In this document: piece after piece, positions 1,552 through 37,867 of the stretch
Numbering within the stretch: the stretch's first letter is position 1
How the letters are laid out: every line of letters starts with the position of its first letter
NCBI GenBank assembly: GCA_900314215.1
Contig: OMUK01000112.1
Span: 1-37,900 of the forward strand
Length of the DNA stretch: 37,900 nt
Source of the DNA: an uncultured Prevotellaceae bacterium
GTDB taxonomy: Bacteria; Bacteroidota; Bacteroidia; Bacteroidales; Muribaculaceae
Reading direction: 5' to 3'
Made by a program: the position numbers and the translations under genes
The notes under the pieces: model-generated
Database searches by the model: none
Told to the model about the DNA's origin: nothing
What the model saw: only the letters and a program-made list of their open reading frames with translations

Positions 1552-4500
1552 TTAATGTTGCAACTGCTTGATGGCGCTGCCATCGCTGTAGCGCAGTATC
1601 ACCACGCCACGGTAGTCGGCATCCACAGGCTGACCTTGCAAGTTGTAGCGGCCAGTCACGATGCGACCCTTGCTCATCGAGGGTGTGGTGATGCCAGTGT
1701 AGACATAACTAATAGCGAGTGGAATGCTACGGCTCACGCTGCCCAAAGTGGCGGTGACAGTGTCGGTGCCGTCGTAGCTAGATGTGATGCGAGCACGAGT
1801 TCCATCGATAACGATGGGCTCGCCAGCGGTCCACACGAGGCCGTCGAGTGCGCCCAGGTCGAAGTCGTGGGTCACCAGGTAGCGGGTGTCGCCCTCATCG
1901 AGGAAGATGGGCACCGAGGCCACCATCACAGCAGTGTCGCTGGCCAGCGAGGCCGGCACGGGATAGCAAGCGGCAGTGGCAGGAGCATTGTAGCCTGCAG
2001 CAGATGTTGCACTGGCATTGACTATCTCGCTGGTGAGACGACCCTCAGCACCAGTGCGGTCGGCCTTGCCCACAGCAGCGATGTTGCTCATTTGCTTATC
2101 ATAGACACAGCCGCTATAGGTAGTTGCGGCATTGTAGTAGCCCGAGATAGAGCCAACGTTGGCCGAGGTGCTGTTGTAGCCCTCAAGCCAGCCCGTGTTG
2201 ATGCAATCGGTGAGCGTGGCGGGGTTGTTGCCGTTGATGCGTCCCAGAATGCCGCCAATACAGTTCAGGCCAGAAATCACGCCCGAGTTGAAGCAACTGG
2301 TGATCGTGGGCGAACCGCCACCCACGATGCCGCCTGCAGCAGCTGTGCTGGCCGACACCTTGGTTGCGGGATTGGTGATGGCAGCAGTGTTGGCACAACG
2401 CTCGACAATGAGGCTGTAATTATCGCTCATGCCCACGATTCCGCCAAGATTGCTGGTCGACGATGCGGTTTTGCCCGTGATGGCGCCAGCATTGAGGCAG
2501 TCGGCCACGGTGAGGGTGTCGGTAGCATTGCTGACAGGCCAGTAACGGCCTATCACGCCACCCAGGCCAGTCACGCCACCCGACACGGTGCCATAGTTGC
2601 GCGCGTTGCAGATAAGACGGCAGGCATCGGCCACACCGATGATGCCGCCGTGCATATTGCACGTCGAGGTCTTAGACGGCGACACGGTGCCATAGTTGGT
2701 GAGATGCGACAGGGTATCGGTAAGGGCAAAGCCTATGACACCGCCCACATACATTGTGCCCGACACGGCGCCGCGGTTCACCATGTGGCTATAGGGTGCA
2801 GTACCCTTGCCAGCGAGGTAGCCTGCCACACCGCCGGTGTAGAAGTTGGTCGAGGTCACTGTCCCGGTGTTGGTGAGGCTGTCGAGGCGCGCGGCATCCT
2901 CGGCATAGCCAATCACGCCGCCAGTGTAGTACTGCGCGCCTGTCACGGTGGTGCCATTGGTGCAATTCACCACAGTGCCTGCACAACGACCCACGATGCC
3001 ACCCGTGTAGCACTGAGTAGCAGTGACGGTGCCGCTTGCCACATTCAGGTTCTCAATCTTGCCTTCCTCGCCCAAGTAGCCCACGAGGCCTGTGGCCTCG
3101 GCCGTGGTCGAGATGTCAATGCCAGTCACGGTGTGGCCATCGCCATGCAGCACGCCGTTGAATTTCTTGGCTCCGCCACAGGCGATGCCTGGGATTGCAG
3201 TAGTCATGGCGATGTCGGCAGTAAACTTGAAGTGCTTGCCGGCATAGTCGCCATGGTTGGCAGCAAGTGCCGACTGCTTGGCAAGCTTGGTGAGGTCCGA
3301 CTTGGTGGCAATAATCCAGGGGTCGGCCTCGGTGCCCGAGCCGCTCAGTATGTTGCCATAGGCCGAGATAGGTATCTGGCGGGTGATGCCGGCATACCTC
3401 TCTATCACCTTGTCGTCGCAGAAGGCATTGCCGCCGTCAAACGTGAGCACCTTGGTCGTAGTGGGCAGCGAGAAGTCGTCGCCATCGTCGAGTTTCCAGG
3501 TGAGTCCCGTGGCATTGTAGCAGGTAGCCTTCACGTCCTCGGTCATCTCGCGGCGGTTTTCGGTGTCGGCAAAGATGATGGGAAAGCTGGTGATCATGGC
3601 TGCGTCGAGCGAGGCAAACTTGGTGAGTTGTGGATAAGTCGTGCCATTGGCAGTCCAGCGGTCGCCATAGGTGCCGGCGATGATCTCGCGGGTGAGACGC
3701 CCCTCGATGCCGCTGGCCTTGATGTTGTTGAGTATCGTGATTTGCGAATCGTAGACCACGTTGCTGAATTTGCCGGCATTCACGCCAGCCACAGCGCCAG
3801 CAGCGTCGACATTGCTCGTGTAGTTGACCACACCAGTAGCCAGGCTGTTGCTCACCACGCCGGTGGCCATGTTGCTTGCCACGATGCCGCCCACATTGGA
3901 TTGCGCAGTGACGTTGCCCGAAGCCAGGCAGTTGTCGATAGTGCCCGAATTGGTGCAGGCGATGCAGGCCAGATTGCTAGCTGCCGTACCAGTGAGTGAT
4001 CCGGCATACTGGCAGCCGGTGATGGTGCCATTGTTGACACAAGCAATGCCAGCCACACGGTTGGACGCACCCGAGAGTGTGATATTGGAGCCCACATAGC
4101 AGTCGGTGATGCTGCCGGTGCTCTCCACCTGGTAGGCGATGCCGCCCCAGGTGCCGCCAGCTGCACGGCTAAGCAGCGTTGCGGGGAGCACTTTCACGTC
4201 GGCAATAGCGCCAAACACACGCCCGGCTATCACGCCACTATTGAGATAGAGGCCCACCGAGCAGGTGGCGTCGATGGTGAGGTTCTTCACCATGCCCGTG
4301 GTAGCGATGTTGCCAAAGAGACCGCTCTCTCGCACCTGGTTGGTCTGGTTAGAGAGTTTCCAATTTTTGAGCGAGTGGCCGGCACCGTCAAATGTTCCAG
4401 CAAAAGGATAGGCTGGATTGAGCCCGATGCAAGCAAAGGAGTCGTCGCTCTGCATGTCGATGTCGGCTCCGAGTGCCACATATTGTCCCTTGAAATCAAG

Positions 4501-6363
4501 CCCGCCCTGGGTGGTGACGCTGGCCAGCTCCTTCATGTCGTCGTAGGAGTCGATGATGTAGGGGTCGGCCTCGGTGCCCGAGCCGGTGAACATATCGGGG
4601 TATATCTTCATCATGTTTTGGCGAGTGGCAGTGCCCACTGTAGAGGTCGCAGTGAACTGTTGCACAGCGCTGCTGCGGGTGATGGTGATGGCATTGCTGC
4701 CCAGCGAGGCGCCATCGCCAGTCACGCTCCATGTGGCACCCGAGCCCGTGCCCAGTGTCACGTTGCTCTTCACGGCGGTGTGCACGTCGGCGCTCGCAAG
4801 CATCACTGGCGCTGCGCCGGCAAGGGCTGCATCGGTAGCCATGCTCGACTTCAGGCGAGGATAGAGGCCCGAGGTGAAGTCCCACACGCTGGCGTCATAT
4901 CCACTCAAGGCCGTGCCTGCGGTGAGCTCGCTCGTCGAGAGCGGGCCAGTCTCGTCGCTGCCCCAGCCTGCCACCTGGCTGTCGTAGTGGCAGTTGGTGA
5001 GGCTGATGCGCTCGTCGCTGGTATAGTGGCCCACATAGGCACCCTGGGCAGGCCGCGCTGCACTTGCTGCATTGATCGTGCCCAAGCTCAAGCAATTGGT
5101 GAGCTTCGTAACAAATTGGGCACTCGACTGATTGCCCACAATACCGCCGGCATATTGCATATAAGTGGAGCCGCTGATGCTGATGTAGGGCGCATCGATG
5201 GCGCCGGCATTGTAGCTGTTGCTGATCGTGAAATCCTCGGCAGCGCCAGCGATGCCGCCGGCTGCCTTGAAGCTGCGTATCGTGCCCGTGTTGAAACACT
5301 GCTCCACCGTGCCTTTCATGCCGTAGCCCACGATGCCGCCCTGGTTGGAGAGCATGCCATAGGTCACGCTGGTCGAGTCGTGGTCCATGAAAATGTCGCT
5401 GATGAGACCGCTATTGTAGCAATTGGAAATCGTGGTTCCGGAAGTTGCTAAGCCAGCGATGCCACCTGCATGGTTGAGAGCCACAATCTTGCCCCGATTG
5501 AAGCAACCGGTGATGATTGCGCCCGAGTTGTAGCCGCTTATACCGCCCACATAGGTATTAACGATGCCGCCTTTGACGATGTGAATGTAGCCCGTGAAGG
5601 CGCAATCCTTGATGTTGTAGCTGGCATTGCTCTGGTTGTTGGCATACGAGGTGATGCCACCCGTGTAGGTGTTGGACCGGGTGATGGTGATGTCGGCACT
5701 CGAGGTGCAGCTGTCAACCATACCGCCCTGCGTCGAACCTGTGATGGAGCCAAAGGCGCAACCCGAATAGACCGTGCCCGAGAAGGAGCAGTCTTTCACC
5801 GTGCCCAAGTTGTAAGCCACCAGGCCGGCATTCAAGTTGTTTTGATTAGCGTTAGAGAGATACATGGTGGCATTGGTCACATGGCAGTTTTCAACAACGC
5901 CTTGATTATTGGCCACCAAGAAGGAGCTGTAGAGCAAAGAGCCCTGGGCATAGAGCAAAGGGCTGGCAATAGTGAGGTTTTTCACAACACCCTTGCTTCC
6001 CAGGTAAGAAAACACAGCAAAGCTGTTGACGTTGCTAGCAACAGTGTCGCACACGCCATAGAACTTCTTGCCATTTCCGTCGAAATTTCCCATAAACGGC
6101 AGGGCGCTAAGCCCCGTCTTGAGGCCCGACTCGCCACTGAAGGTGATGTCGTTTCCCACCATGAAGTAGCACCCCTCATAGGTGGATTGCCCGCTGTGGA
6201 GGTAATTCTGGATTTCAAGCAGATCGGCAACCTTGGTAATGAGGTATGGGTCGGCCTCGGTTCCAGTTCCGCCGCTGAAAGTGCCTACTCCCTCGGCTGT
6301 GGCACACACAGGGATTAACAGCGCCGCCACTAGCGCAATAAGTTTATTTTTTCGCATAGGCAT
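1552..6363 (-). CDS. Giant secreted GLUG-repeat surface protein
   Basis: A 1603-residue protein with an N-terminal signal peptide (basic MRKNK, hydrophobic core, cleavage near CATAEG). Three modules each begin with GxGTEADPY/W-I (about residues 32, 594 and 1008) and continue into arrays of GLUG-like repeats such as 'TGGIVGR..GTVVNC', which predict a long beta-helical fold. Ig-like or linker segments with 'PVMLA', 'FPIIF' and 'VPIFL' strands close the modules. The end, about YNLQGQPVDADYRGVVILRYSDG, resembles the short C-terminal domains found on exported Bacteroidales proteins, some of them type IX secretion cargo. A surface adhesin or glycan-binding role is inference. It is paralogous to the protein at 31641-37799. 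ATG 6357 is an alternative start. Confidence 0.85.
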   Translation of the reverse strand: MPMRKNKLIALVAALLIPVCATAEGVGTFSGGTGTEADPYLITKVADLLEIQNYLHSGQSTYEGCYFMVGNDITFSGESGLKTGLSALPFMGNFDGNGKKFYGVCDTVASNVNSFAVFSYLGSKGVVKNLTIASPLLYAQGSLLYSSFLVANNQGVVENCHVTNATMYLSNANQNNLNAGLVAYNLGTVKDCSFSGTVYSGCAFGSITGSTQGGMVDSCTSSADITITRSNTYTGGITSYANNQSNASYNIKDCAFTGYIHIVKGGIVNTYVGGISGYNSGAIITGCFNRGKIVALNHAGGIAGLATSGTTISNCYNSGLISDIFMDHDSTSVTYGMLSNQGGIVGYGMKGTVEQCFNTGTIRSFKAAGGIAGAAEDFTISNSYNAGAIDAPYISISGSTYMQYAGGIVGNQSSAQFVTKLTNCLSLGTINAASAARPAQGAYVGHYTSDERISLTNCHYDSQVAGWGSDETGPLSTSELTAGTALSGYDASVWDFTSGLYPRLKSSMATDAALAGAAPVMLASADVHTAVKSNVTLGTGSGATWSVTGDGASLGSNAITITRSSAVQQFTATSTVGTATRQNMMKIYPDMFTGSGTEADPYIIDSYDDMKELASVTTQGGLDFKGQYVALGADIDMQSDDSFACIGLNPAYPFAGTFDGAGHSLKNWKLSNQTNQVRESGLFGNIATTGMVKNLTIDATCSVGLYLNSGVIAGRVFGAIADVKVLPATLLSRAAGGTWGGIAYQVESTGSITDCYVGSNITLSGASNRVAGIACVNNGTITGCQYAGSLTGTAASNLACIACTNSGTIDNCLASGNVTAQSNVGGIVASNMATGVVSNSLATGVVNYTSNVDAAGAVAGVNAGKFSNVVYDSQITILNNIKASGIEGRLTREIIAGTYGDRWTANGTTYPQLTKFASLDAAMITSFPIIFADTENRREMTEDVKATCYNATGLTWKLDDGDDFSLPTTTKVLTFDGGNAFCDDKVIERYAGITRQIPISAYGNILSGSGTEADPWIIATKSDLTKLAKQSALAANHGDYAGKHFKFTADIAMTTAIPGIACGGAKKFNGVLHGDGHTVTGIDISTTAEATGLVGYLGEEGKIENLNVASGTVTATQCYTGGIVGRCAGTVVNCTNGTTVTGAQYYTGGVIGYAEDAARLDSLTNTGTVTSTNFYTGGVAGYLAGKGTAPYSHMVNRGAVSGTMYVGGVIGFALTDTLSHLTNYGTVSPSKTSTCNMHGGIIGVADACRLICNARNYGTVSGGVTGLGGVIGRYWPVSNATDTLTVADCLNAGAITGKTASSTSNLGGIVGMSDNYSLIVERCANTAAITNPATKVSASTAAAGGIVGGGSPTITSCFNSGVISGLNCIGGILGRINGNNPATLTDCINTGWLEGYNSTSANVGSISGYYNAATTYSGCVYDKQMSNIAAVGKADRTGAEGRLTSEIVNASATSAAGYNAPATAACYPVPASLASDTAVMVASVPIFLDEGDTRYLVTHDFDLGALDGLVWTAGEPIVIDGTRARITSSYDGTDTVTATLGSVSRSIPLAISYVYTGITTPSMSKGRIVTGRYNLQGQPVDADYRGVVILRYSDGSAIKQLQH

Positions 6364-9378: not shown

Positions 9379-9738
9379 ATGACTGAAAACGAAACATTAG
9401 TACAAGCGATTATCGAGGGTATCCAAGAGAAGAAAGGACACGACATCGTGCACGTCGACATGAGCGATATCGACACTGCCGCCACACGCGACTTTGTGAT
9501 ATGCACAGGCACAAGCACCATGCACGTCGACGCCGTGGCCGACAGCGTGCGCGAGTATGTGGAGAAGAAGCTGGGCACGCGCCCCTTCAACTACGACGGC
9601 TACCAGAACTCGCAATGGATTGTGCTCGACTATGGCACAGTATATGTGCACGTGTTCCTGCCCGACTACCGCGTGCGCTACAATCTCGAGGAGCTGTGGG
9701 CCGACGCCAAGGTCACACGCATCCCCGACTTGGATTGA
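9379..9738 (+). CDS. rsfS: Ribosome silencing factor RsfS
   Basis: A 119-residue protein of the RsfS (DUF143, Iojap) family at its usual length. Recognisable parts are the N-terminal helix, the central DFVICTGTSTMHVDAVAD segment, and YDGYQNSQWIVLDYGTVYVHVF followed by YNLEELWADA near the end. RsfS binds ribosomal protein uL14 and blocks joining of the two subunits when nutrients run low. I chose ATG 9379 because the family similarity starts there and the TACCTTTG box is just upstream. In many Bacteroidetes rsfS directly precedes ftsH, and the same order is kept here with a 123-base gap. Confidence 0.93.
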   Translation: MTENETLVQAIIEGIQEKKGHDIVHVDMSDIDTAATRDFVICTGTSTMHVDAVADSVREYVEKKLGTRPFNYDGYQNSQWIVLDYGTVYVHVFLPDYRVRYNLEELWADAKVTRIPDLD

Positions 9739-9861: not shown

Positions 9862-12800
9862 ATGGCTGGTATATTCAACAACAACGATAACAACAACGGC
9901 GCGCAGGGCAAGCGGTTCCGCTTCAACATCTACTGGATGTATGCCCTCTTGCTCTTTGGCCTGCTTGCCTACTGGATGTATGGTGCCGACGGCAGCAGCC
10001 AAAGCAAGGAGGTGACGTGGACCGACTTCCAGACCTGGGTTGAAAAGAAAGGCGTGTCAAAGATTGTGGTGCACGCCAATAAGAACGAGGCCGAGGCCTT
10101 CCTGACGCCAGCGATGGCCAAGCAGGTGTTTGGCCCCAACTATCATGCCCAGCAAGGAGCAACGCCCACCATCATTGCCACCATCCCGTCGAGCGACAAA
10201 TTTGAAGACAAGGTCGACAAGTGGCAACAGACGGGCGTCTTCAACGGCAAAATCGAGTATAAAAACGACAGCGACTTCACCAATCTGCTCATCGCCTGGG
10301 GACCACTCATCTTGCTCGTGGTCTTCTGGATATGGATCATGCGCGGCATGGGAGGCCGCAACGGCGGTGGCGGCGTGTTCAACGTGGGCCGCAGCCGTGC
10401 CAAGCTCCACGTCAAGGACAAGGACAAGAGCAAGGAGGTGACCTTTGCCGACGTGGCCGGCATGGAAAAGGAGAAAAAAGAGGTGTCGGAGATTGTGGAG
10501 TTTCTCAAGAACCCCAAGCAATACACCGACCTGGGCGGCACCATACCCAAGGGCGTGCTGCTCGTGGGCCCTCCAGGCACCGGCAAGACCCTGCTGGCCA
10601 AGGCTGTGGCCGGCGAGGCACAAGTGCCCTTCTTCTCAATGGCAGGTAGCGACTTTGTAGAGATGTTTGTGGGCGTGGGCGCCAGCCGCGTGCGCGACAT
10701 GTTCCGCGAGGCCAAGGAGAAAGCACCCTGCATCGTCTTTATCGACGAGATCGACGCCATAGGCCGCGCCCGCAGCCGCAAGAATGACTTTGCCGCCAAC
10801 GATGAGCGCGAGAACACCCTCAACCAGCTGCTCACCGAGATGGACGGCTTCGGCAACAACAGCGGCGTGATTGTGCTGGCCGCCACCAACCGTGCCGACG
10901 TGCTCGACAAGGCTCTGCTGCGCGCTGGCCGATTTGACCGCCAAATCTATATAGGCAACCCCAGCGTGCAAGACCGCGCCGACATCTTCAAGGTGCACCT
11001 CAGGAATGTGAAAATCGACGGCAGCGTCGACCTCGACAAGCTGGCCCGCATGACCGCAGGCCTCTCGGGCGCCGACATCGCCAACATATGCAACGAGGCC
11101 GCCCTGCTGGCTGCCCGCGCCAAGAAGAAAGCTGTGCAGCAGCCCGACTTCTACGCCGCCATCGACCGCGTCACGCGGCAGCTCGACAAGCCCACCCGCA
11201 TGACCGACACCGTGACCTTTGCCGACGTGGCCGGCATGGAGAAGCCCAAGAAGGAAGTGGCCGAGATCATCTCCTTCCTGCGCAACCCCAAGATGTTTAC
11301 CCGCCTGGGCGGCAAGATACCGCGCGGCGTGCTGCTCGTGGGCCCTCCAGGCTCGGGCAAGACGCTGCTGGCCAAGGCCGTGGCAGGCGAGGCACATGTA
11401 CCCTTCTTCTCAACCTCGGCAGCCGAGTTCCAAGGCGAGTTTATGGGCTCGGGCGTGAGCCGCGTGCGCGAGCTCTTCCGCAACGCCAAGGAGAAGGCGC
11501 CGTGCATCATCTTTATCGACGAAATCGACGCCATAGGCAGCCGCTCCAACCGCAACGGCGAGCGCGAGATCACCCTCAACCAGCTGCTGGCCGAGATGGA
11601 CGGCTATGGCACCAACAACGGCGTGATCGTGATGGGCGCCACCAATCGCGTGGAACTCATCGACAAGGCCCTGGTGCGCCCCGGCCGATTTGACCGCAAG
11701 ATATATGTGGGCTTCCCCGAGTTGAAAGACCGCGAGGAAATCTTCAACCTCTACCTCAAGCGCATCACCACCGACGACAGCGTCGACGCCAAGGAGCTCG
11801 CCCGCAAGGCATCGGGCTTCTCGGGCGCCGAGATAAGCAACGTGTGCAACGACGCCGCCGTGCAGTCGGCCGGCGCCGGTCACGAGAGTGTGACCCAAGA
11901 CGACCTGCTCAAGTCGATCGAGAAGGTGCGCAAGGGCCTTGACTACGACACCAAGCTGGCCAACACCGTCACATTCGACGACATAGCCGGCATCACCAAG
12001 CCCAAGAGCAAGATATTGCAAATCGTCGACTTCTTGAAGCGTCCCGAGCACTACACCCGCCTGGGCGGCAAGATACCGCGCGGCGTGCTGCTCTCGGGTC
12101 CCACCGGCACCGGCAAGACCCTGCTGGCCAAGGCTGTGGCCAACGAGGCCGACGTGCCCTTTATCACCGCATCGGGTCCCGACCTGGCCAACATATACGG
12201 CGACCCCATACAGCGCCTGCACGAGATATTCCGCGAGGCGCGGGAGAAGTCGCCCTGTGTGGTCTTTATCGACGAGATCGAGGCCATAGGCGCCAAGCGC
12301 AGCGAGGTGGCTGCCGACCAGAGCCGCACGCCGGCCCTCTCGCAGCTGCTCATCGAGATGGACGGCATGGGCACCAATAGCGGCGTGATTGTGATGGCCG
12401 CCTGCAACAACCAGGACACGCTCGACAAGTCGCTCCTGCGACCCGGCCGCCTCGACCGCCACATCTATGTGGGCCAGCCCAACCAGCAAGAGCGTGTGGA
12501 AATCTTCAGCCTCTATCTCAAGCACGTGAAGCTTGCCCACGACGTGAAAATCGAGGACTTAGCCAAGAAGACGTCGGGCTTCTCGGGCGCCGACATCTCC
12601 AAGGTGTGCAACGACGCCGCCCTGGCCGCCGCCAGCAACGACGACGACACGGCCGTGTCGATCAAGCACTTCGACGAGGCCATCGAGAACCTGCGCAAGG
12701 GCCTGGAGGACAAGCACACCGAGGTGGGCACCATCACATTTGACGACGTGGCCGGCATGGACGAGGCCAAGCACGAGGTGACCGAGATTGTCGACTTCTT

Positions 12801-14316
12801 GAAGAATCCTGCAAAATATGGCCGACTGGGCGGCAAGGTGCCCAAGGGTGCCCTGCTCGTGGGCCCTCCAGGCACCGGCAAGACCATGCTGGCACGCGCT
12901 GTGGCCGGCGAGGCCCAAGTGCCCTTCTTCTCCCGGTCGGGCTCTGAGTTTGTAGAGAAGTTTGTGGGCGTGGGCGCCAGCCGCGTGCGCGAGCTCTTCA
13001 ACGAAGCCAAGGAGAAAGCTCCCTGCGTGGTCTTTATCGACGAGATCGACGCCGTGGGCGCAGCCCGCAGCAACGAGGGCTTCAACAGCGAGCACGACCA
13101 GACGCTCAACCAGCTGCTCACCGAGATGGACGGCATCGACGGCGACGCCGGCGTGATTGTGCTGGCCGCCACCAACCGCGAGGACATCCTCGACCCGGCA
13201 CTGCTGCGCCCCGGCCGATTTGACCGCAAGGTGCACGTGAGCCTGCCCGCCCTCCCCGACCGCGAGGCCATCTTCAAGGTGCACCTCAAGAAGAAAGTGG
13301 TCGACCCCAGCGTCGACCTCAACCTGCTGGCCCGCCAGACGACCGGCATGAGCGGCGCCGACATAGCCAACGTGTGCAACGAGGCCGCCATCATCGCCGC
13401 CCGCCGCAACGCTCCCGCCATAGCCATGCAAGACTTCGGCGAGGCTATCGACAAGGTGACCATGGGCTTGGAAAACAAGTCGATGCTGCTCACCAAGCAA
13501 GACAAATATGAGACAGCCGTGCACGAGGCCGGCCACACCACCGTGATATGGCACCTGCAATATGCCCAGCCGCTGGTCAAGATATCGATTGTGCCTCGCG
13601 GCCAGGCCCTGGGTGTGAACCTCACCATGCCCGAGGAGCGCGTGAGCGTGAACAAGCAAGGCTTCCTCGACGAGATATGCACCTTCATGGGCGGCCGCGC
13701 CGCCGAGGAGCTCTTCCTGGGCACCATAGGCGCCGGCGCGCTCAACGACATGCAGCAGGCCACGCGCATCGCCCGCAACATGGTGGTGTACTACGGCATG
13801 AGCGAGAAGATGCCCAACATCTCCTACTACGACCCCAAGGGCCAAATGGGCTCGCACCCCTACAGCGACGAGCGCGCCCACGTGATCGACGAGGAGATTT
13901 CGCGCATCGTCAACGAGCAATACCAGCGTGCCAAGGCCATCATCAGCAAGTATGCCGAGGGACACCACAAGGTGGTCGACGAGCTCATGGACAAGGAGGT
14001 GATTTATGCCGCCGACGTGGAGCGCATCTTCGGTCCACGTCCCTGGCCAAGCCGCACCGAGGAATTGCAGAAGATAGCCGAGGAGCGCAAGCGCAAGGCC
14101 GATGCCGAGCGCAAGGCCCAAGAGCAAGCCGAAATGCAACGGCAAGCAGAGGAAGAGAAGCAGCGCAAGGCACAAGAGGAGGCACAGCGCAAGGACCAAG
14201 AAGAAGAGGCACAGAAGCAAGCCCAGCAGCAGGCCGCCACGCCCAGCGACGACGACTCGCCCGCAACCCCTCCCGACGAGCCCTCGCAAGAGATGCCTCC
14301 AAAGTTTGACAAATAA
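9862..14316 (+). CDS. ftsH: FtsH-type membrane zinc protease with four tandem AAA+ modules
   Basis: A 1484-residue protein; usual FtsH is roughly 600-720. The N-terminus is normal: helix 1 (about 23-40), a periplasmic FtsH-ext domain, helix 2 (about 141-160) and a GMGG linker. Four FtsH-type AAA+ modules follow, starting near residues 193, 451, 703 and 958. Walker A lysines are 242, 500, 752 and 1007; Walker B glutamates are 296, 554, 805 and 1061; all four have an LxRxGRxDR arginine-finger motif. Pore loops are MFVG, EFMG, IYGD and KFVG. One M41 protease domain follows: HEAGH (His1221, Glu1222, His1225) with Asp1296 as third zinc ligand. The tail (about 1390-1484) is a K/E/Q/A-rich predicted coiled coil with an acidic Pro-rich end. 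Inference: ATP-driven extraction and degradation of membrane proteins by a multi-tier or pseudo-hexameric motor. Confidence 0.93.
10438..13460 (+). repeat. Four tandem copies of a roughly 765-bp AAA+ coding unit
   Basis: The units start near 10438, 11212, 11968 and 12733, and their Walker A lysine codons are 774, 756 and 765 bases apart. Long exact matches survive: 33 bases shared by 10558-10590 and 12853-12885, 32 bases by 10666-10697 and 12961-12992, and 39 bases by 11299-11337 and 12055-12093. The proteins differ clearly elsewhere, so this is not an assembly duplication. Confidence 0.9.
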
Positions 14317-14462: not shown

Positions 14463-16193
14463 CTATGGAATTACTTCGTCGTACTTCACCAGATCACACC
14501 CCTTAATTTGGACGACGACGAGATGCAACGTGGTGCCATGAAGCATAGACCGCAACTTCTCATCCTGGGCATAACACTTGATTTGTTCCACAGCATCATC
14601 CCATTGCTTTCGTGCTTCGGCATCCGTGGCATTGGCCTTCAGATACTTCAACTCCAAAATGTAGCTGTGTGAGGCATGAAGCCAGGCATGAATGTCAGGC
14701 AAAAGGAAGAAGTCGCAGTAGCCGTGATTGAGTTCCTGCTCTGGTGCCACAGCATAGTAATTGGTCAAGTTCAGATAGGCCGTCATGAAGCCTTGCAGGT
14801 TGCGCTCACCCTCGACAAGCTGCCGCACGGATGTGGTGTCGTGATAGGCCTTGCAGATGGTTTCAATCAACGGGCGCCAGTTACCGTCACGCGCGGCAAA
14901 TTTGAAACACTCCTTCAGGTCGTCCAAATTAAGCGCGTCGATGGACTGGTACTCCTGCAACAAGTAGTTATAGTATTGCTTGCGTACATTGTTGTTAGGA
15001 ATGACGAGCTTCAGCATATCCCAGTCCACCCCGCCAATGGTGAGCATGCCGTAATAATAGAGCAGACTGATGAAGTTGCCGTATTCCATCATTCGCTCCG
15101 CAGGGAAGTGGCTCACCAGCTGACCGATGATGTAGCCATCCTCAACAATCTTATGGATGGTACTGATGCGCTTGCTCTTGGACTGGTCAATCTCGACGAG
15201 CCGCTGCAGTTTAACGTAATCAGTACCCGTGTTGGCATCAAGCATCTCCTTAGGGCGCTTGCCTTTATTGACAAGACTGTCAAGATAATAGCATACCATG
15301 TCACTGTTGAAGACACTTGGCTCACGACCAAAACTTTCCTCGGCAAAGCAATAATTGTCATACCACGGCTTCATGTCGGCAATGATTTCCTCCTCGCTCT
15401 GCTTAATGGCGCCAGCATCCTTATAGTAGCGTATCATCTGTCGGACTTCTTCCTCCGAAAACCCCAGCATCTGATTGAATCGCTCATCCATCGTTATATT
15501 TAGGGCTATATTGTAGCCGCTTGTCAAGTCGTCAAGCGTAATGGGAGAGACACCAAGCATGATGATGCGCTTAAACGTGGCTTTGAAAATCTTGAAGATG
15601 TCACGGTAGAAACCTGTGCCATGAGTCAAATCATGATAAGCCTGCTGCCCCTTCACATTTAGAACATTGTTGGTGAAGTTGTCATATTCATCAACAATGA
15701 GATAAAGTGGAAGCTGAAGCAATTCGGCTGTTGAGCGTAAAGCATTCAACTTTGGGATAGAAGCATGTTCGTTCTTTATCATTTCCACCTTATCCTGGCC
15801 AAAGTACTTTACATGAGCCTCAACAAATTTGTTTATCTCTTGGTCGCAATATCTATTGAAGTTCTCCTCCAATCTCTCAACATCGCTTCCGACCAATGAG
15901 AAATCAAGATGCAACACCAGATACTGATTATGATACACTGTGGAATGAGAATCGACATAGAGCCCTTGGAACCACTGTTCAAAGTCATCCTTGTCGTTGA
16001 CGTCATAATAAGCCTCCAGCATACTTAGAAACAGGCTCTTGCCGAACCGGCGGGGCCGGGCAAGGAAAAGGAAGTTGCCGGCGTCCTCCAGTTTCTGAAA
16101 ATACATCGTCTTATCGACCAAATATTTGTTCTCCTTCCTGATTTGTTTGAAATCAGATATGCCGTAAGGTATAAGTTTTATCTTATCTGCCAT
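14463..16193 (-). CDS. AAA-ATPase-like / PD-(D/E)XK nuclease-like protein
   Basis: A 576-residue protein of the two-domain family common and often multicopy in Bacteroidetes (AAA-ATPase_like plus PDDEXK_9). The N-terminus IPYGISDFKQIRKENKYLVD is characteristic, followed by a Walker A variant ARPRRFGKS and a Walker B-like YLIVDEYDNF. The C-terminal nuclease-like core shows Asp494 (GYCDFF) and ELK (Glu514, Lys516), the D...ExK pattern. The biological role of the family is not settled; defence and mobile-element links have been proposed. I chose ATG 16193 because the upstream alternative is a TTG. GC content is lower than in the flanking genes, suggesting a more recent arrival. It is convergent with ftsH, with 82 bases between it and the ftsH terminator. 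Confidence 0.85.
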   Translation of the reverse strand: MADKIKLIPYGISDFKQIRKENKYLVDKTMYFQKLEDAGNFLFLARPRRFGKSLFLSMLEAYYDVNDKDDFEQWFQGLYVDSHSTVYHNQYLVLHLDFSLVGSDVERLEENFNRYCDQEINKFVEAHVKYFGQDKVEMIKNEHASIPKLNALRSTAELLQLPLYLIVDEYDNFTNNVLNVKGQQAYHDLTHGTGFYRDIFKIFKATFKRIIMLGVSPITLDDLTSGYNIALNITMDERFNQMLGFSEEEVRQMIRYYKDAGAIKQSEEEIIADMKPWYDNYCFAEESFGREPSVFNSDMVCYYLDSLVNKGKRPKEMLDANTGTDYVKLQRLVEIDQSKSKRISTIHKIVEDGYIIGQLVSHFPAERMMEYGNFISLLYYYGMLTIGGVDWDMLKLVIPNNNVRKQYYNYLLQEYQSIDALNLDDLKECFKFAARDGNWRPLIETICKAYHDTTSVRQLVEGERNLQGFMTAYLNLTNYYAVAPEQELNHGYCDFFLLPDIHAWLHASHSYILELKYLKANATDAEARKQWDDAVEQIKCYAQDEKLRSMLHGTTLHLVVVQIKGCDLVKYDEVIP

Positions 16194-16330
16194 TGCTTTC
16201 AATCTTTATTAAGCCGCGTAATCATTCCTTAACAGAATTGGATGCTAAAGATACGCAAAATAAATCAAAGCGCAAAAGAGAATCGGGAGAATTGGGAATT
16301 AGGCGCATGGCTATTGGCGGGGGTGGGAAT

Positions 16331-31640: not shown

Positions 31641-34600
31641 CTACTTGCGGCACATGCGCTTGATGGCGCGGGTGGTGCCGTCGCTGTAGGTAACCTTTTC
31701 AATCACGACTTGGCCATCGGCATCGGGCTGGGCAAGCTCGCGGCCTTGCAGGTCGTAGTAGCTGCGGGCCACAATGGTGCGAGAAGCCACATTGGTGTCG
31801 CTCACACCGGTGTTCTCGGCCATGAGCACGAGATTGTAGGTGCGGGTGAGGTTGCCCACAGTGAGCGTTGCCCACGCGGCCTCGCCCACAGTCTTGTTGC
31901 GCAACGACACGTTGTTGCCGTCGATGGCCAGGTTGTCGCTGCAGGTCCACACGGCGTTGTGCGGCGTGCCCACGTGGAAGTCGCTATACACGCTGTCGGC
32001 CACCTCGCCGTCGGCAAGGAGCAGCATGGCCACGGCAAAGCTGTTGTAGTCGTTGTTGCGCATCACCTTGAGCGACGGGTAGCAGGCCACCTGGTAGTCG
32101 AAGGCCGAGTCGATCTCGAGTTGGGTGAACTCGCGCTTGGTGAGGCCTTGCGCCTTGATGGTGGCGTCGTAGTCTACAGCGTCGTTCACTTCCTTGTCAT
32201 ACCATGTAGTGCCCACTTCCAGGAAGCGGCAGCTGGAGTTGTAACCGAGCACGTTGCCATTGTTGGTCGTGGTGGTTGCAGTCCACTTGCCGGCATTGTA
32301 GGTGTTGGTCACCTTGGTCACATAGGATTCAGCCTGTGCGTTGCCAGGAAAGCCCAGCACGCCGGCCACATTGCTGTAGCCGCTCACCTCGCCGAAGTTG
32401 TAGCAATCGGTCATCCAGGGACGTCCCGAGCCAATGAGGCCGCCCACGCGGGTGCCCGTCTTGGCGGTAGCCACGACCTTGCCATAGTTGGCATCGCCCT
32501 GGAATATGTCCTTCTTGCCCGAGAAGTAGCCCACCAGGCCACCCACTTGGGTGCTGGCTGCAGTGATGGTGCCGGCGTTCCAGCTGTTGTAGATGCTGCA
32601 TCCGCCCAGACCCACCAGGCCGCCCTGGCTGCCGGTAGTAGGATTGATTCCAGTGATGTCGCCCGTGTTGGAGCAGGCGATGATGATTGCCGTGGTGTCG
32701 CCGGTGAAGCTGCCGGCGACGCCGCCCAGCGAGTTGTAGCCGGTCACGTTGCCCGAGTTGTGGCAGTCGATGATGGTGTCGGGGGCTGCGGCCGAGGCCA
32801 TGAGGTCGCCGCCTATACCGCCCGAGTAGTAGGTCTTGAAGCCATCGTCGGTGATGATGTTGCCCGAGTTGGTGCAACGGCTCAGCGTGGTGCCAGCTCG
32901 CATGTCGCCTATGATGCCGCCAAAGTAGAAGTTGCGCTTCGAGCTGCTTGTGGCGGTCTCAATGTCGGCGGTGTTGTAGCAGCTGTCGATATTGAGGCGC
33001 ACGGCCTGCGTGTGGGCAGCCGAGCGGCCTGCGATGCCGCCAGCATAGTACACGGCCATGAGCGAACCGGTATTGTGGCAATAGCTCACGCCCGAGGGTG
33101 CATAGATGCTGCCAGCGATACCGCCCACCTCATTGCCGGTGGCAATCACGCCGCCATTGTTGTAGCAGCGATAGAAGTAGGCCGAAGCGGCACCGGCGAT
33201 GCCGCCCAAGTCCTTGCCACCCTCGACGACGCCCTCGTTGCTGCAGCTGTCGATCTTCACAGCAGTGCTGGCTGCGCTGTAGCCAAGGATACCGCCGGCA
33301 TAGGCCGTCGTTGCCGAGATGTCGCCATAGTTGTGGCAATTGGCAACCGAGCTGCCGGTGTAGCCCACGGCGGCGATGCCGGCAGCATAGCTCGATGCTG
33401 CGCTCACCGCGCTGCGGTTGGTCAAGTTGTAGGCCTTGCCATAGAGGCGGGCCACAAAGGCTGCCGCATTGTTGTAGCCCTTGAAGCTGCACGAGTCGAC
33501 GTTGAGGTCGTGGATGGCGCCAGTTGCGCCCACGATGCCAAAGAGGGCCGTGCCAGCCGAGGTCTTGTCGGCGCTATTGTCGAGTGCAATGTGCTTGAAG
33601 GTCTTGCCGTTGCCGTTGAAGTCGGCGGCAAAGATATTGTTCTGCGCCACTGGCGTATAGGTGCTGCCAGTGAAGTCGATGTCGTTGGCCACCTTGAAGT
33701 AGGCGCCTGCGTAGTCATAGCCCGTGGTTGCCACAAAGTCGGCAAGGGTCTGCATGTCGGCAGGAGTCTTGATCAAGTAGGGCACTGTGGCTGTGCCGTC
33801 GCCGTCGAAGAGGTCGGCATTGATGGCACTCACTGGCACGAGGCGTTGCGAGGCGCCCAGCGTCACGACCACCGTGTCGAGCGAGGCGCCACTCTCGGGC
33901 ACTGCGACATTGAGCGCGGTGCCGGCAATGCTGAATGCCGTGCCATGCTGCATGACGTAGGCCACCGTCGAGGTGTTGTTGAGCGTTGCAGCGGACTTCA
34001 TGCTCGAGGCATAGTCGCCGTCAGCAAAGTAGATGGGCGACAGCGATGCGAGCCGTGCGCCCTCATAGGTGCTGGCTGCCTTGACCATAGGATAAGCGTT
34101 GGCTGCCTGCACAAAACCGTCGCCCAGGCCCTCAACGTTGCCGCTGGCAAGTTGCGAAGCCTTGAGGCCGGTCACGCCCTCCACGCTAGAGTTGGCAGCG
34201 GCCATGAGCTTTTGCAGCTGGCTGTCGTAGTAGCAGGCCTCATAGGTCGAGGTGGCCGTGGCGCCAGCCATCTGGCCAGCCGCGGTGATATTGGCAGTAG
34301 CCTGCACGAGGCCGTAGTTCACAGCGCCCACAGTCTTGGCGCCGCTCTCGTAGCCCACGATGCCGCCCACTTGGCTCAGCGAGGTCACAGGGCCGGCGTT
34401 CACCACACTGGTGACGGTGCTCTTGGAGTTGTTGCCCACGATACCGCCGGCCGAGTATTGCTTGCCGGCAGCTTGGTAGCTATTGATGTAGATAGCACCC
34501 ACTTCACCCACGTTCTCGCAATTGGTGATAGTAGCGCCATTGGCATAGCCCGCGATGCCGCCGGCAGTGTTGTTGCCCACATGCACGGTGCCGGCATTGT

Positions 34601-37600
34601 AGCAGTTGCTCACCACAGCACCGCTGTTGAGGGTGCCCACGATGCCGCCGCCACGCGAGAAGAACACGGTGACGGGTGCATAATTGGCACAACTGTCGAT
34701 GGTGCCGTAGCTCTGGCCGGCGATAGCGCCGCCATAGGAGAAGAGCATGTAGCGTGCCTCCTTGCCTATCACCACGTTGCGCACCACGCCGTTGGCACCC
34801 AGATTGCCGAAGAGGCCGCCATAGTAGGTGCTGTTGGCATCACGAGGATTCACCTCACCGGGGTCTTTGCCCGAGGTGTTGCCCTCGCCATAGTAGCCCA
34901 CCTTGTTGACCACAAAATTGGTGATGGTGTGCCCCTGGCCGTTGAAGTTTCCTTGGAACTGGAGCTTGCCCTTGTCGTCATCATCGATAGGCACGATGGT
35001 GTCGCCCTGGCAGTCGATGTCGGCCACCACCTTGATATATTTGCCATCGAAGGTGAGCGAGGCATTGTTGCTGATCGAGCTCAGTTTCTCAAGTTCCTCG
35101 CGGGTGCCAATCTCCCAAGGCGAAGCCTCGGTGCCCTCGCCAGCAAACGGGATGGGCGCGATGTTGACAAAGAGGAGCTTGTAGGCATTGTTGCGGCGCA
35201 CCTCGATGGTGTCGGTATACTGGTTGTAGTTGAGCTTGCCAGTGCCGTTGTCGAAGGCGAAGGCATAGCCGCCAGTGGTGCTGTACTGGCCGTCGACCAC
35301 TGCGCGCCACACGAGGTTGCTGGCGTCGGGATAGGTGAAGTCGTTGCGCACCATGTCCACATTGTCGCCAGCGGCAAGGATGATAGGAGCCGAAGCCACC
35401 ACGGCGATGTCGGTCGTGTCGCTATTCTTGATGCGAGGATACATGTCCTGAGTGAAGGTCCACACGCTGCTGTCGAAACCGGGCAGCCCCGTTGCGGCAG
35501 TCATCTCGGCAGTGTTCTTGCCATAGGTCGCATTGTTGATGTGGGCCATCTGCTGGTCGTAGTAGCAGTTGTTGAAGGTCACATAGGTGTGCTTGTCGCC
35601 CACGAGGCCGGCGATAGAGTCGGTCGAGGCGGTGCGCACGATCATGCTCGAGTAGCAATTGGTGAACGTAGAGGTGAGATAGGTGCCCGATGTAGAGCCC
35701 GAGATTTCAGGAGTCTCACCCAGCAGGCCACCCACGTCGGTGCCATAGCTGTTCACCACCTGGCCCGAGGTGTAGCAGTCGGTAGCCGTCACGTTGTACA
35801 CAGCGCCTATGAGGCCGCCCAGATACATCTGGTCGGTGCCGGCAGCCACGATGCGGGCTGCGGCATAGCAGCGGTCCACTTTGGCATGGCCCACCTCGCC
35901 GGCGAGGCCGCCCAGCAGCACCGCCTTGCTCACGCTGGCGTAGACTGTGCCGCTAAATGAGCAGTCGCTCACATTCACTATGGGAGAGGTTGAAGTGGCG
36001 CGGGTGATGAAACCAGCCACACCGCCGGCAAACTCCTGGGTGTGGAGCAGGGCAACTGTGCCGCCTGCGACGCTCACGTTGCTCAGGTCGTTGTAGGCAA
36101 AACCCACTGCGCCGCCCACGTAGCCGTAGGCCTGCACATTGGCGCCCTCAACCTTCACATTGCTCACCTTGCCCATGCTGCGTCCGGCCACGGGGCCCAC
36201 GTTGTAGCCCGTCGACGAGAGGCGCACGTTGCTCATCTCGATGTTGTCGATGGTGCCCCAGCCGCGGCCCACCAGGATGCCGGCATTGTAGCCGGGAGTG
36301 GTGACGCGGGCGTTGCTGAATTTCACATTCTTGAGCACGCTCTCGGGGCCTGTGCTGCCGAAGAGGCCCACGTAGTCGTAGGCATAGTCGGCAATCTTGA
36401 AATTCTTGATGGTATAACCCTTGCCGTCGAAGGTGCCGTCGAAGCGATAGGTGCTGTTGCCGATGGGCACATAGGTCGACTTCCAACCCGTGAAGTCAAT
36501 ATCGTTGGCCAGGGCGAAATACACGCCCTTATACACGGGATAATAGGTGTTGCTGGCCAAATCGGTGGCTTGCGAGCCGCGCTTGCTGGCGTCGGTGTTG
36601 GTCGACACGGCCAGTGCCAGCAGGTCGTCGGGGGTCTTGATCAAGTAGGGGTCGGCCTCGGTACCCGAGCCCGAGAATGCGGCCAATGGCTTCTCGGGGA
36701 AGGTGAACGCGGCCGCAGCGCGGAAGTCGCTGCTCTCATACATGCTCGATATCGAGCCTGCCGTGGAGCTCACCATCCACTTGCCGAACACCACCTGTGC
36801 CGAGTCGCCGGCCGTGTAGGTGGTGGTGATGGGCGACAGCAACGAGGCCGAGATCTTGATGGTGGTGTCGCCACTCTGGGTCTCGGTCATGGGATAGTTG
36901 CTGAATGTGCCGTAATAGGACATCGTGAAGAGCGACTGCGGGTCGACCGTGATGGTCTTGTCGTAGTTCAGGTTCAGGTCGAGCGCCACATAGCCGCTAT
37001 TGGTGTACACGTGCTCCACGCGCGCCTTGTCGTCGCCAATTTGCCGCACGTAGACCCAGTCGTTGACCGTGCTCACACTGCGGCGCTTGGTCGAGAAGTA
37101 GCGGTCGTAGCTTATCACCTTGTGGGTAGCGGCGCCATTGGCCGTAATCACGTCGGCATAGGTCTGCACGCCCACGGTGAGGTAATAGCCCTTGTAGCTG
37201 CCCGAAGCAATGAAGAAGCCAAAGGGGGTCTCGATGTGGATGTTGCCACCCTCAATCACGCCCTTGATGGGCTCGGTAGGGCTGTAGACGTTGTTGTCGG
37301 CATCCACGCTGTAGATCCACACCGGGCCTTGCGTGATGTCGACCACGTGCTGAGGATAAATGGTGACCGTGCCAGTGGCCACATCGATGTGGGCACCCAC
37401 CGTGACGTCGCTGTAGACCACGCCGCCTATGGTCACGCTATCATCGCTCACCTTAGTGACAGTCGACGCCGTGTTGGTGATCAGGATGCCCGACGACGGG
37501 TGCGAAATCAGCGTTCGCTTGCCCACATAGTCGTCGATGGTGCCCACCGGGGCAGTCGACTTCACTCGCTTGGAATAAGTCTTGCGAGCCTTGGCGCTGA

Positions 37601-37799
37601 GCAGGCCCTCGGTGTAGGGCTTGTCCTGGCTTTGGGCCACCTCGGCTTGCCTGATGCTCGCAGTGCTCACTGTCGTGCCTGCCGCCACACTGCCCGCGTT
37701 GTCGTAGTTCACCACATCGCGGCTGTGCTCAACGGCATTGGATGCCAGCGCCCCCATTACCGAGAACGCCAGCATCAATAACAGAGTAAATCTCCGCAT
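31641..37799 (-). CDS. Giant secreted GLUG-repeat surface protein, paralogue of 1552-6363
   Basis: A 2052-residue protein with a clear signal peptide (MRRFTLLLMLAFSVMGALAS). Residues about 25-370 form a unique N-terminal region without GLUG repeats, rich in beta-type segments. Three modules then start with G-T-E-A-D/S-P-like linkers (about residues 379, 889 and 1335; the third is degenerate, DGTATVPYLI) and carry long arrays of GLUG-type repeats such as VGGVIGFA, YAGGILGYS and DSCSNEGV. The end (YYDLQGRELAQPDADGQVVI, then TYSDGT) matches the C-terminal domain of the other GLUG protein. It is predicted to be exported and surface-attached; ligand and function are unknown. The start is ATG 37799; a TTG two codons upstream is less likely. 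Confidence 0.87.
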   Translation of the reverse strand: MRRFTLLLMLAFSVMGALASNAVEHSRDVVNYDNAGSVAAGTTVSTASIRQAEVAQSQDKPYTEGLLSAKARKTYSKRVKSTAPVGTIDDYVGKRTLISHPSSGILITNTASTVTKVSDDSVTIGGVVYSDVTVGAHIDVATGTVTIYPQHVVDITQGPVWIYSVDADNNVYSPTEPIKGVIEGGNIHIETPFGFFIASGSYKGYYLTVGVQTYADVITANGAATHKVISYDRYFSTKRRSVSTVNDWVYVRQIGDDKARVEHVYTNSGYVALDLNLNYDKTITVDPQSLFTMSYYGTFSNYPMTETQSGDTTIKISASLLSPITTTYTAGDSAQVVFGKWMVSSTAGSISSMYESSDFRAAAAFTFPEKPLAAFSGSGTEADPYLIKTPDDLLALAVSTNTDASKRGSQATDLASNTYYPVYKGVYFALANDIDFTGWKSTYVPIGNSTYRFDGTFDGKGYTIKNFKIADYAYDYVGLFGSTGPESVLKNVKFSNARVTTPGYNAGILVGRGWGTIDNIEMSNVRLSSTGYNVGPVAGRSMGKVSNVKVEGANVQAYGYVGGAVGFAYNDLSNVSVAGGTVALLHTQEFAGGVAGFITRATSTSPIVNVSDCSFSGTVYASVSKAVLLGGLAGEVGHAKVDRCYAAARIVAAGTDQMYLGGLIGAVYNVTATDCYTSGQVVNSYGTDVGGLLGETPEISGSTSGTYLTSTFTNCYSSMIVRTASTDSIAGLVGDKHTYVTFNNCYYDQQMAHINNATYGKNTAEMTAATGLPGFDSSVWTFTQDMYPRIKNSDTTDIAVVASAPIILAAGDNVDMVRNDFTYPDASNLVWRAVVDGQYSTTGGYAFAFDNGTGKLNYNQYTDTIEVRRNNAYKLLFVNIAPIPFAGEGTEASPWEIGTREELEKLSSISNNASLTFDGKYIKVVADIDCQGDTIVPIDDDDKGKLQFQGNFNGQGHTITNFVVNKVGYYGEGNTSGKDPGEVNPRDANSTYYGGLFGNLGANGVVRNVVIGKEARYMLFSYGGAIAGQSYGTIDSCANYAPVTVFFSRGGGIVGTLNSGAVVSNCYNAGTVHVGNNTAGGIAGYANGATITNCENVGEVGAIYINSYQAAGKQYSAGGIVGNNSKSTVTSVVNAGPVTSLSQVGGIVGYESGAKTVGAVNYGLVQATANITAAGQMAGATATSTYEACYYDSQLQKLMAAANSSVEGVTGLKASQLASGNVEGLGDGFVQAANAYPMVKAASTYEGARLASLSPIYFADGDYASSMKSAATLNNTSTVAYVMQHGTAFSIAGTALNVAVPESGASLDTVVVTLGASQRLVPVSAINADLFDGDGTATVPYLIKTPADMQTLADFVATTGYDYAGAYFKVANDIDFTGSTYTPVAQNNIFAADFNGNGKTFKHIALDNSADKTSAGTALFGIVGATGAIHDLNVDSCSFKGYNNAAAFVARLYGKAYNLTNRSAVSAASSYAAGIAAVGYTGSSVANCHNYGDISATTAYAGGILGYSAASTAVKIDSCSNEGVVEGGKDLGGIAGAASAYFYRCYNNGGVIATGNEVGGIAGSIYAPSGVSYCHNTGSLMAVYYAGGIAGRSAAHTQAVRLNIDSCYNTADIETATSSSKRNFYFGGIIGDMRAGTTLSRCTNSGNIITDDGFKTYYSGGIGGDLMASAAAPDTIIDCHNSGNVTGYNSLGGVAGSFTGDTTAIIIACSNTGDITGINPTTGSQGGLVGLGGCSIYNSWNAGTITAASTQVGGLVGYFSGKKDIFQGDANYGKVVATAKTGTRVGGLIGSGRPWMTDCYNFGEVSGYSNVAGVLGFPGNAQAESYVTKVTNTYNAGKWTATTTTNNGNVLGYNSSCRFLEVGTTWYDKEVNDAVDYDATIKAQGLTKREFTQLEIDSAFDYQVACYPSLKVMRNNDYNSFAVAMLLLADGEVADSVYSDFHVGTPHNAVWTCSDNLAIDGNNVSLRNKTVGEAAWATLTVGNLTRTYNLVLMAENTGVSDTNVASRTIVARSYYDLQGRELAQPDADGQVVIEKVTYSDGTTRAIKRMCRK

Positions 37800-37867
37800 A
37801 AGCAAAATTTTTAATAATTAATAAACCTTAATTCCGCAACACTATAATTTAACTTTATTTATAAGTT

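Follow-up and report, generated by a model that had tools for sequence, protein, structure and literature searches.

What kind of machine would an FtsH protease form if each of its chains carried four AAA+ modules? According to the Figure 1 legend of one review, AAA+ proteases have one or two modules per protein, and, as the same review describes them, the AAA and protease domains of FtsH-like proteases each form a hexameric ring, stacked around one pore (PMC7226402). The question is raised by the window analyzed here, a stretch of 37,900 nucleotides from an uncultured Prevotellaceae bacterium (GenBank assembly GCA_900314215.1, contig OMUK01000112.1), in which the initial annotation had described an FtsH encoded in one open frame, with two membrane helices, four apparently active AAA+ modules and a single HEAGH protease domain. 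We aimed to determine how this gene is built, how widely it occurs, how its modules arose, and which assembly its features favor.

Gene and domain architecture

The frame at 9862-14316 (+) is open throughout and translates as 1484 aa, and each of the described elements was recovered within it. Judged by sequence and locus, the protein is an FtsH: its membrane anchor and its four AAA modules, each complete, are of the FtsH type, and they are followed by one intact M41 protease domain. Pfam returned four AAA stretches, four AAA_lid_3 domains, one Peptidase_M41 and one FtsH_ext, and the NCBIfam model FtsH_fam (TIGR01241) scored 1855.8 bits against a cut-off of 600, a value inflated by the repeats. 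The N-terminal part (9862-10437, +) holds FtsH_ext (PF06480, 44.2 bits, cut-off 25.5; aa 24-119) and two hydrophobic stretches (about aa 24-42 and 140-160), which were judged by eye in the translation and would correspond to the two membrane helices. It is followed on the same strand by module 1 (about aa 193-450; 10438-11211), module 2 (aa 451-702; 11212-11967), module 3 (aa 703-957; 11968-12732) and module 4 (aa 958-1208; 12733-13485), each comprising AAA and AAA_lid_3. Module 4 is joined to the M41 zinc protease domain (13486-14028, +; PF01434, 183.4 bits, cut-off 29.9), which carries the only HEAGH motif of the chain at aa 1221-1225 (13522-13536). This motif and a downstream 10-residue stretch with an Asp, which we take to be the third zinc ligand, are present in 10/10 tandem proteins, as we term FtsH chains that have two or more AAA modules. 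The gene ends in a long, charged C-terminal tail and the stop codon (14029-14316, +); the tail proper (14062-14313) is rich in E, K, Q and A and evolves far more rapidly than the AAA modules and the M41 domain.

No description of a multi-module FtsH was found, by title or abstract start, in the open-licence PMC literature, in keeping with the initial annotation, to which none was known; within that literature, this is an FtsH with an architecture found nowhere described.

Occurrence of tandem FtsH

An M41 search over 101 genomes of the genus returned a match in 91. Frames of single-module size (656-744 aa) account for 77 of these, a four-module form for five (G000, G004, G041, G043 and G044; 1452-1487 aa) and a three-module form for another five (G012, G033, G063, G068 and G092; 1178-1200 aa). 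The long frames contain four and three Walker A motifs, respectively, and one M41 domain each, and one of the four-module genomes, G004, is a single contig of 3,340,670 bases. The other four matches are incomplete, with three short frames (G010, G023 and G035, that of G010 ending at the contig end) and that of G040, whose longer frame (812 aa) was rejected as a tandem gene owing to a run of N (a scaffold gap) inside ftsH. Nine of the ten genomes in which an M41 match is absent are 61-89% complete, and the tenth, G067, is 95% complete.

Larger groups were sampled with a query that runs across the junction of modules 1 and 2; a tandem protein matches it as a whole and a single FtsH by half. The family sample (397 genomes from 30 genera, 393 of them matched; G041 lies outside it) yielded nine matches over the whole query, each in this genus and with E no higher than 4.7e-116, the next best being a partial match at 4.9e-59. 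G000 gave the only full match in the order sample (393 genomes, 207 genera; next 1.0e-58) and in the phylum sample (395 genomes, 171 genera; next 1.3e-54), the three samples overlapping one another and being drawn from larger groups. These searches place tandem FtsH in ten genomes of the genus and in none of those sampled from other genera across the family, the order and the phylum. Among the 80 FtsH-bearing loci listed for generic FtsH peptides (plus strand, several phyla), more than one AAA module occurs in no frame that has both the AAA and the M41 motif, and 61 offer a usable frame with one AAA module and M41. The named FtsHs closest to the proteins of twelve relatives come from Bacteroidales, the top match each time being a sheep-rectum MAG that belongs to the Bacteroidaceae and is otherwise unclassified.

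Compared with each other, the modules share 49.6-67.1% identity at the amino acid level, 66-75% at the nucleotide level and 60-69% at third codon positions. Because they are so diverged, we reject an assembly repeat or a recent duplication.

Origin of the modules and selection

When 35 modules of the ten tandem proteins and 16 of single ones (51 in all) were placed in a tree, they grouped by position: the first modules of all ten tandem proteins fall together (100/99), as do the middle modules (99/96) and the last modules of all ten (100/98). The alternative that the four-AAA lineage acquired its modules independently, so that they would all form one group, was rejected (p-AU 1.6e-06). The best tree places module 3 outside all module 2s, and its placement as sister of module 2 within the four-AAA lineage was not rejected (p 0.089); module 2 may have been duplicated into modules 2 and 3 in the four-AAA lineage, or an ancestral four-module form may have undergone loss. 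The M41 domains of the ten tandem proteins are split from 40 single-AAA ones with a support of 100 and a long stem, and, on the trees taken together, the tandem FtsH lineage has a single origin.

Alanyl-tRNA synthetase served as species marker, in a tree built on 48 of the 98 genomes in which it was matched. The four-AAA species group together (SH-aLRT 97), as do four of the three-AAA species (100), and G068 lies elsewhere; one clade of all ten tandem species was rejected (p-AU 0.0042), and one of the nine without G068 was not (p 0.1). Because the species do not form one clade while their FtsH lineage is single, this one marker suggests that ftsH may have been transferred between species or that modules may have been lost.

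Selection was estimated with the simple Nei-Gojobori method for seven orthologue pairs, some of them with high dS. dN/dS was 0.00-0.18 in every AAA module across the seven pairs, with module 3 giving the highest value among the AAA modules in 4/4 four-module pairs, and by this measure every module is maintained under purifying selection. Together with the 50-67% identity between modules and the position-specific clades across species, purifying selection on each module indicates that the modules are old, distinct and used.

Genomic context

In the genome of the window (90% complete), no M41 gene besides the tandem ftsH was found. Just upstream lies rsfS (9391-9735, +; PF02410, tblastn), and the order rsfS-ftsH was seen at 10/10 tandem loci and at 6/6 single-AAA loci examined. 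As the sole M41 match, placed in the same gene order as at single-AAA loci, the expanded gene is carried by the ordinary ftsH locus itself; its product, being the only FtsH found in its species, presumably does the housekeeping job there. Between ftsH and pdxA, on the strand opposite ftsH, 14466-16202 (-) encodes a 579-aa PF09820 AAA-ATPase_like / PF08011 PDDEXK_9 protein.

Compensation for lost unfoldases was checked in ten tandem and ten single-AAA genomes. A full-length frame for the Lon protease is present in 17/20 genomes and was not found in the four-AAA genomes G041, G043 and G044 (assemblies 67-88% complete); ClpB_D2-small, a domain also carried by other Clp ATPases, is present in 20/20 and Band_7 in 19/20. 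These three show no consistent pattern of such compensation.

ATPase motifs, pore loops and module spacing

In the window protein, the motif search places the Walker A starts at 236, 494, 746 and 1001 (lysines 242, 500, 752 and 1007) and the Walker B glutamates at 296, 554, 805 and 1061, with every lysine and glutamate at the position first proposed. The motif R-x-G-R-[FL]-D-R occurs in four copies. Across the ten tandem proteins, 35/35 modules retain Walker A, Walker B and the two Arg-finger arginines, and 34/35 the sensor-1 Asn. Given these motifs and the purifying selection, all four modules are apparently active, as had been suggested.

Pore loop 1 reads F-V-G in module 1 of 10/10 tandem proteins and in the last module of 9/10 (W-V-G in G068), both being canonical in the window protein. 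Module 2 has F-(M/V)-G in 9/10, F-M-G in the window protein, and thus retains an aromatic pore loop in these nine; in G068 it reads L-V-G. Two features had been missed in the initial annotation: in 5/5 four-AAA proteins, module 3 has a pore loop 1 shortened by one residue, which reads N-(I/P)-Y and then D-P-I, and pore loop 2 is shorter in 25/25 non-first modules (modules 2-4 in the window protein). The ATPase motifs of module 3 are intact, and it is the remodelling of its pore loop 1 that makes pulling on substrate by this module doubtful. At the presumed inter-subunit signalling position, right after E-M-D-G, each tier of the five four-AAA proteins has a residue of its own (F, Y, M and I).

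The spacing of the modules is regular. The Walker A pitch between modules 1 and 2 is 258 in 10/10 tandem proteins, and later pitches are 252-256. From the lid-helix anchor to the next module there are 13 residues at each of the three junctions of the window protein, and the second module joins after the lid helix, where the protease domain comes in ordinary FtsH.

Predicted structure and related systems

AlphaFold models were obtained for m1-m2 (pTM 0.47; pLDDT below 50 where the two modules meet) and for m3-m4-M41 (pTM 0.57). Neither contains a confident orientation between modules; in the alignments behind both, the homologues span one AAA module only (m1, or m4 with M41). In the latter model, m4 and M41 are predicted to be placed as in AFG3L2, the two together fitting chain 6nyy_E at 2.8 Å over 450 columns (TMt 0.86), with a poorer fit to other FtsH-type structures (3.5-10.3 Å). 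In Foldseek, the m1-m2 model has p97/Cdc48 chains as its listed matches, and the p97 D1-D2 arrangement is reproduced by neither model (listed rmsd 17-22.5 Å). By sequence, modules 3-4 are collinear with a VCP-like double-AAA ATPase (5vc7, query 702-1200), and the best PDB sequence matches of the chain are FtsH.

The protein thus shares features with several known systems. With FtsH, YME1 and AFG3L2 it has in common FtsH_ext, the membrane anchor, AAA, M41 with HEAGH and the rsfS locus of single-AAA FtsH, but those enzymes have one AAA module per chain as opposed to three or four here, and the M41 domain has diverged here. The double-AAA (type II) ATPase Cdc48/p97 likewise has head-to-tail, classic-clade AAA modules with short linkers, whereas it combines two of them with an N domain and has no protease; the tandem proteins have three or four, no N domain, and the anchor and M41 within the chain. 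Dynein and RNF213 are single-chain AAA rings and, like tandem FtsH, possess more than two AAA modules per chain. However, in a dynein-type ring six modules of one chain close the ring, in place of the four or three of tandem FtsH, whose modules, unlike those of dynein and RNF213, are copies of FtsH, all with full catalytic motifs.

Proposed assembly and alternatives

We propose that internal duplication of the AAA module turned a housekeeping FtsH into a multi-tier protease. Six chains would form a membrane-anchored homohexamer in which like modules lie side by side in rings, giving three stacked ATPase rings in the sister lineages and four in the window species, all aligned over one M41 protease ring of six-fold symmetry. 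Since the second module sits at the usual protease position, the added tiers would leave this ring and its stoichiometry unchanged. Substrate would enter from the membrane side and pass from ring 1 to ring 4 and into the protease chamber. Rings 1 and 4, with the canonical F-V-G pore loop, would be the likely main pullers; ring 2 would be nearly canonical, and ring 3 would probably have a different grip, or else serve to regulate and brace the stack. Because module 3 is without a canonical pore loop and evolves fastest in 4/4 four-module pairs, one ring could even be structural only. We infer the hexamer, its stacking, the threading direction and the division of labour alike. A homohexamer in which three or four ATPase tiers are stacked on a single protease ring, and in which at least rings 1 and 4 pull, appears to us reasonably probable; the fuller version, in which four hexameric ATPase rings (24 modules), each specialised, feed one proteolytic ring and relatives have three such rings, we put at about even chances.

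Stacked tiers and a shared ring had both been offered in the initial annotation, and the first is favored over the second, because three- and four-module chains each carry one M41 and four does not divide six. If the modules of one chain shared a ring in the manner of dynein, the complex would contain fewer than six chains. Three modules from each of two chains would make up six, and the predicted module pairs are unlike the stacked rings of p97; on the other hand, four modules cannot complete a six-module ring, one M41 per chain would leave the six-fold protease ring incomplete, and the next module is attached at the normal position of the protease domain, so that we regard this arrangement as improbable. 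In some double-AAA ATPases, one ring does the pulling, and a stacked hexamer could similarly have mainly passive middle modules, bracing the stack by binding ATP, or acting as spacer or gate, with the first and/or last ring pulling. The remodelled pore loop 1 and fastest evolution of module 3, and the short pore loop 2 of all non-first modules, would fit such a machine, but the Walker A, Walker B and Arg-finger residues intact in every module, the low dN/dS of the middle modules and the aromatic pore loop of module 2 in nine of the ten proteins speak against it, and we consider it rather unlikely.

FtsH enzymes can process themselves, and the long chain could accordingly be a precursor that is cleaved to give individual AAA units or a shorter FtsH, the working enzyme being an ordinary one. 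Yet the junctions are short and constant in spacing in ten species, and the internal modules have no extra membrane anchors, which makes this reading very improbable. The chance that the gene is an assembly or sequencing artefact, or a functionless recent tandem duplication, is negligible, with modules 50-67% identical, purifying selection, and ten genomes, including one in a single contig; we rejected it.

If the stacked homohexamer is true, it would be the first AAA+ machine known to us with more than two ATPase tiers, and we know of no precedent for one. With one, three or four modules at a shared locus, the species of this genus offer a natural series on tier number versus unfolding force, processivity and energy cost, and on substrate hand-over between rings. 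They also show that the architecture of a very widespread bacterial protease can change within a genus.

Other open frames in the window

Two further long frames were observed on the minus strand, in both cases with a long frame on the other strand as well. At 1555-6363 (-), a 1603-aa open frame has the GLUG motif as its sole Pfam match, and the 2054-aa open frame at 31644-37805 (-) has no Pfam match at E 0.001.
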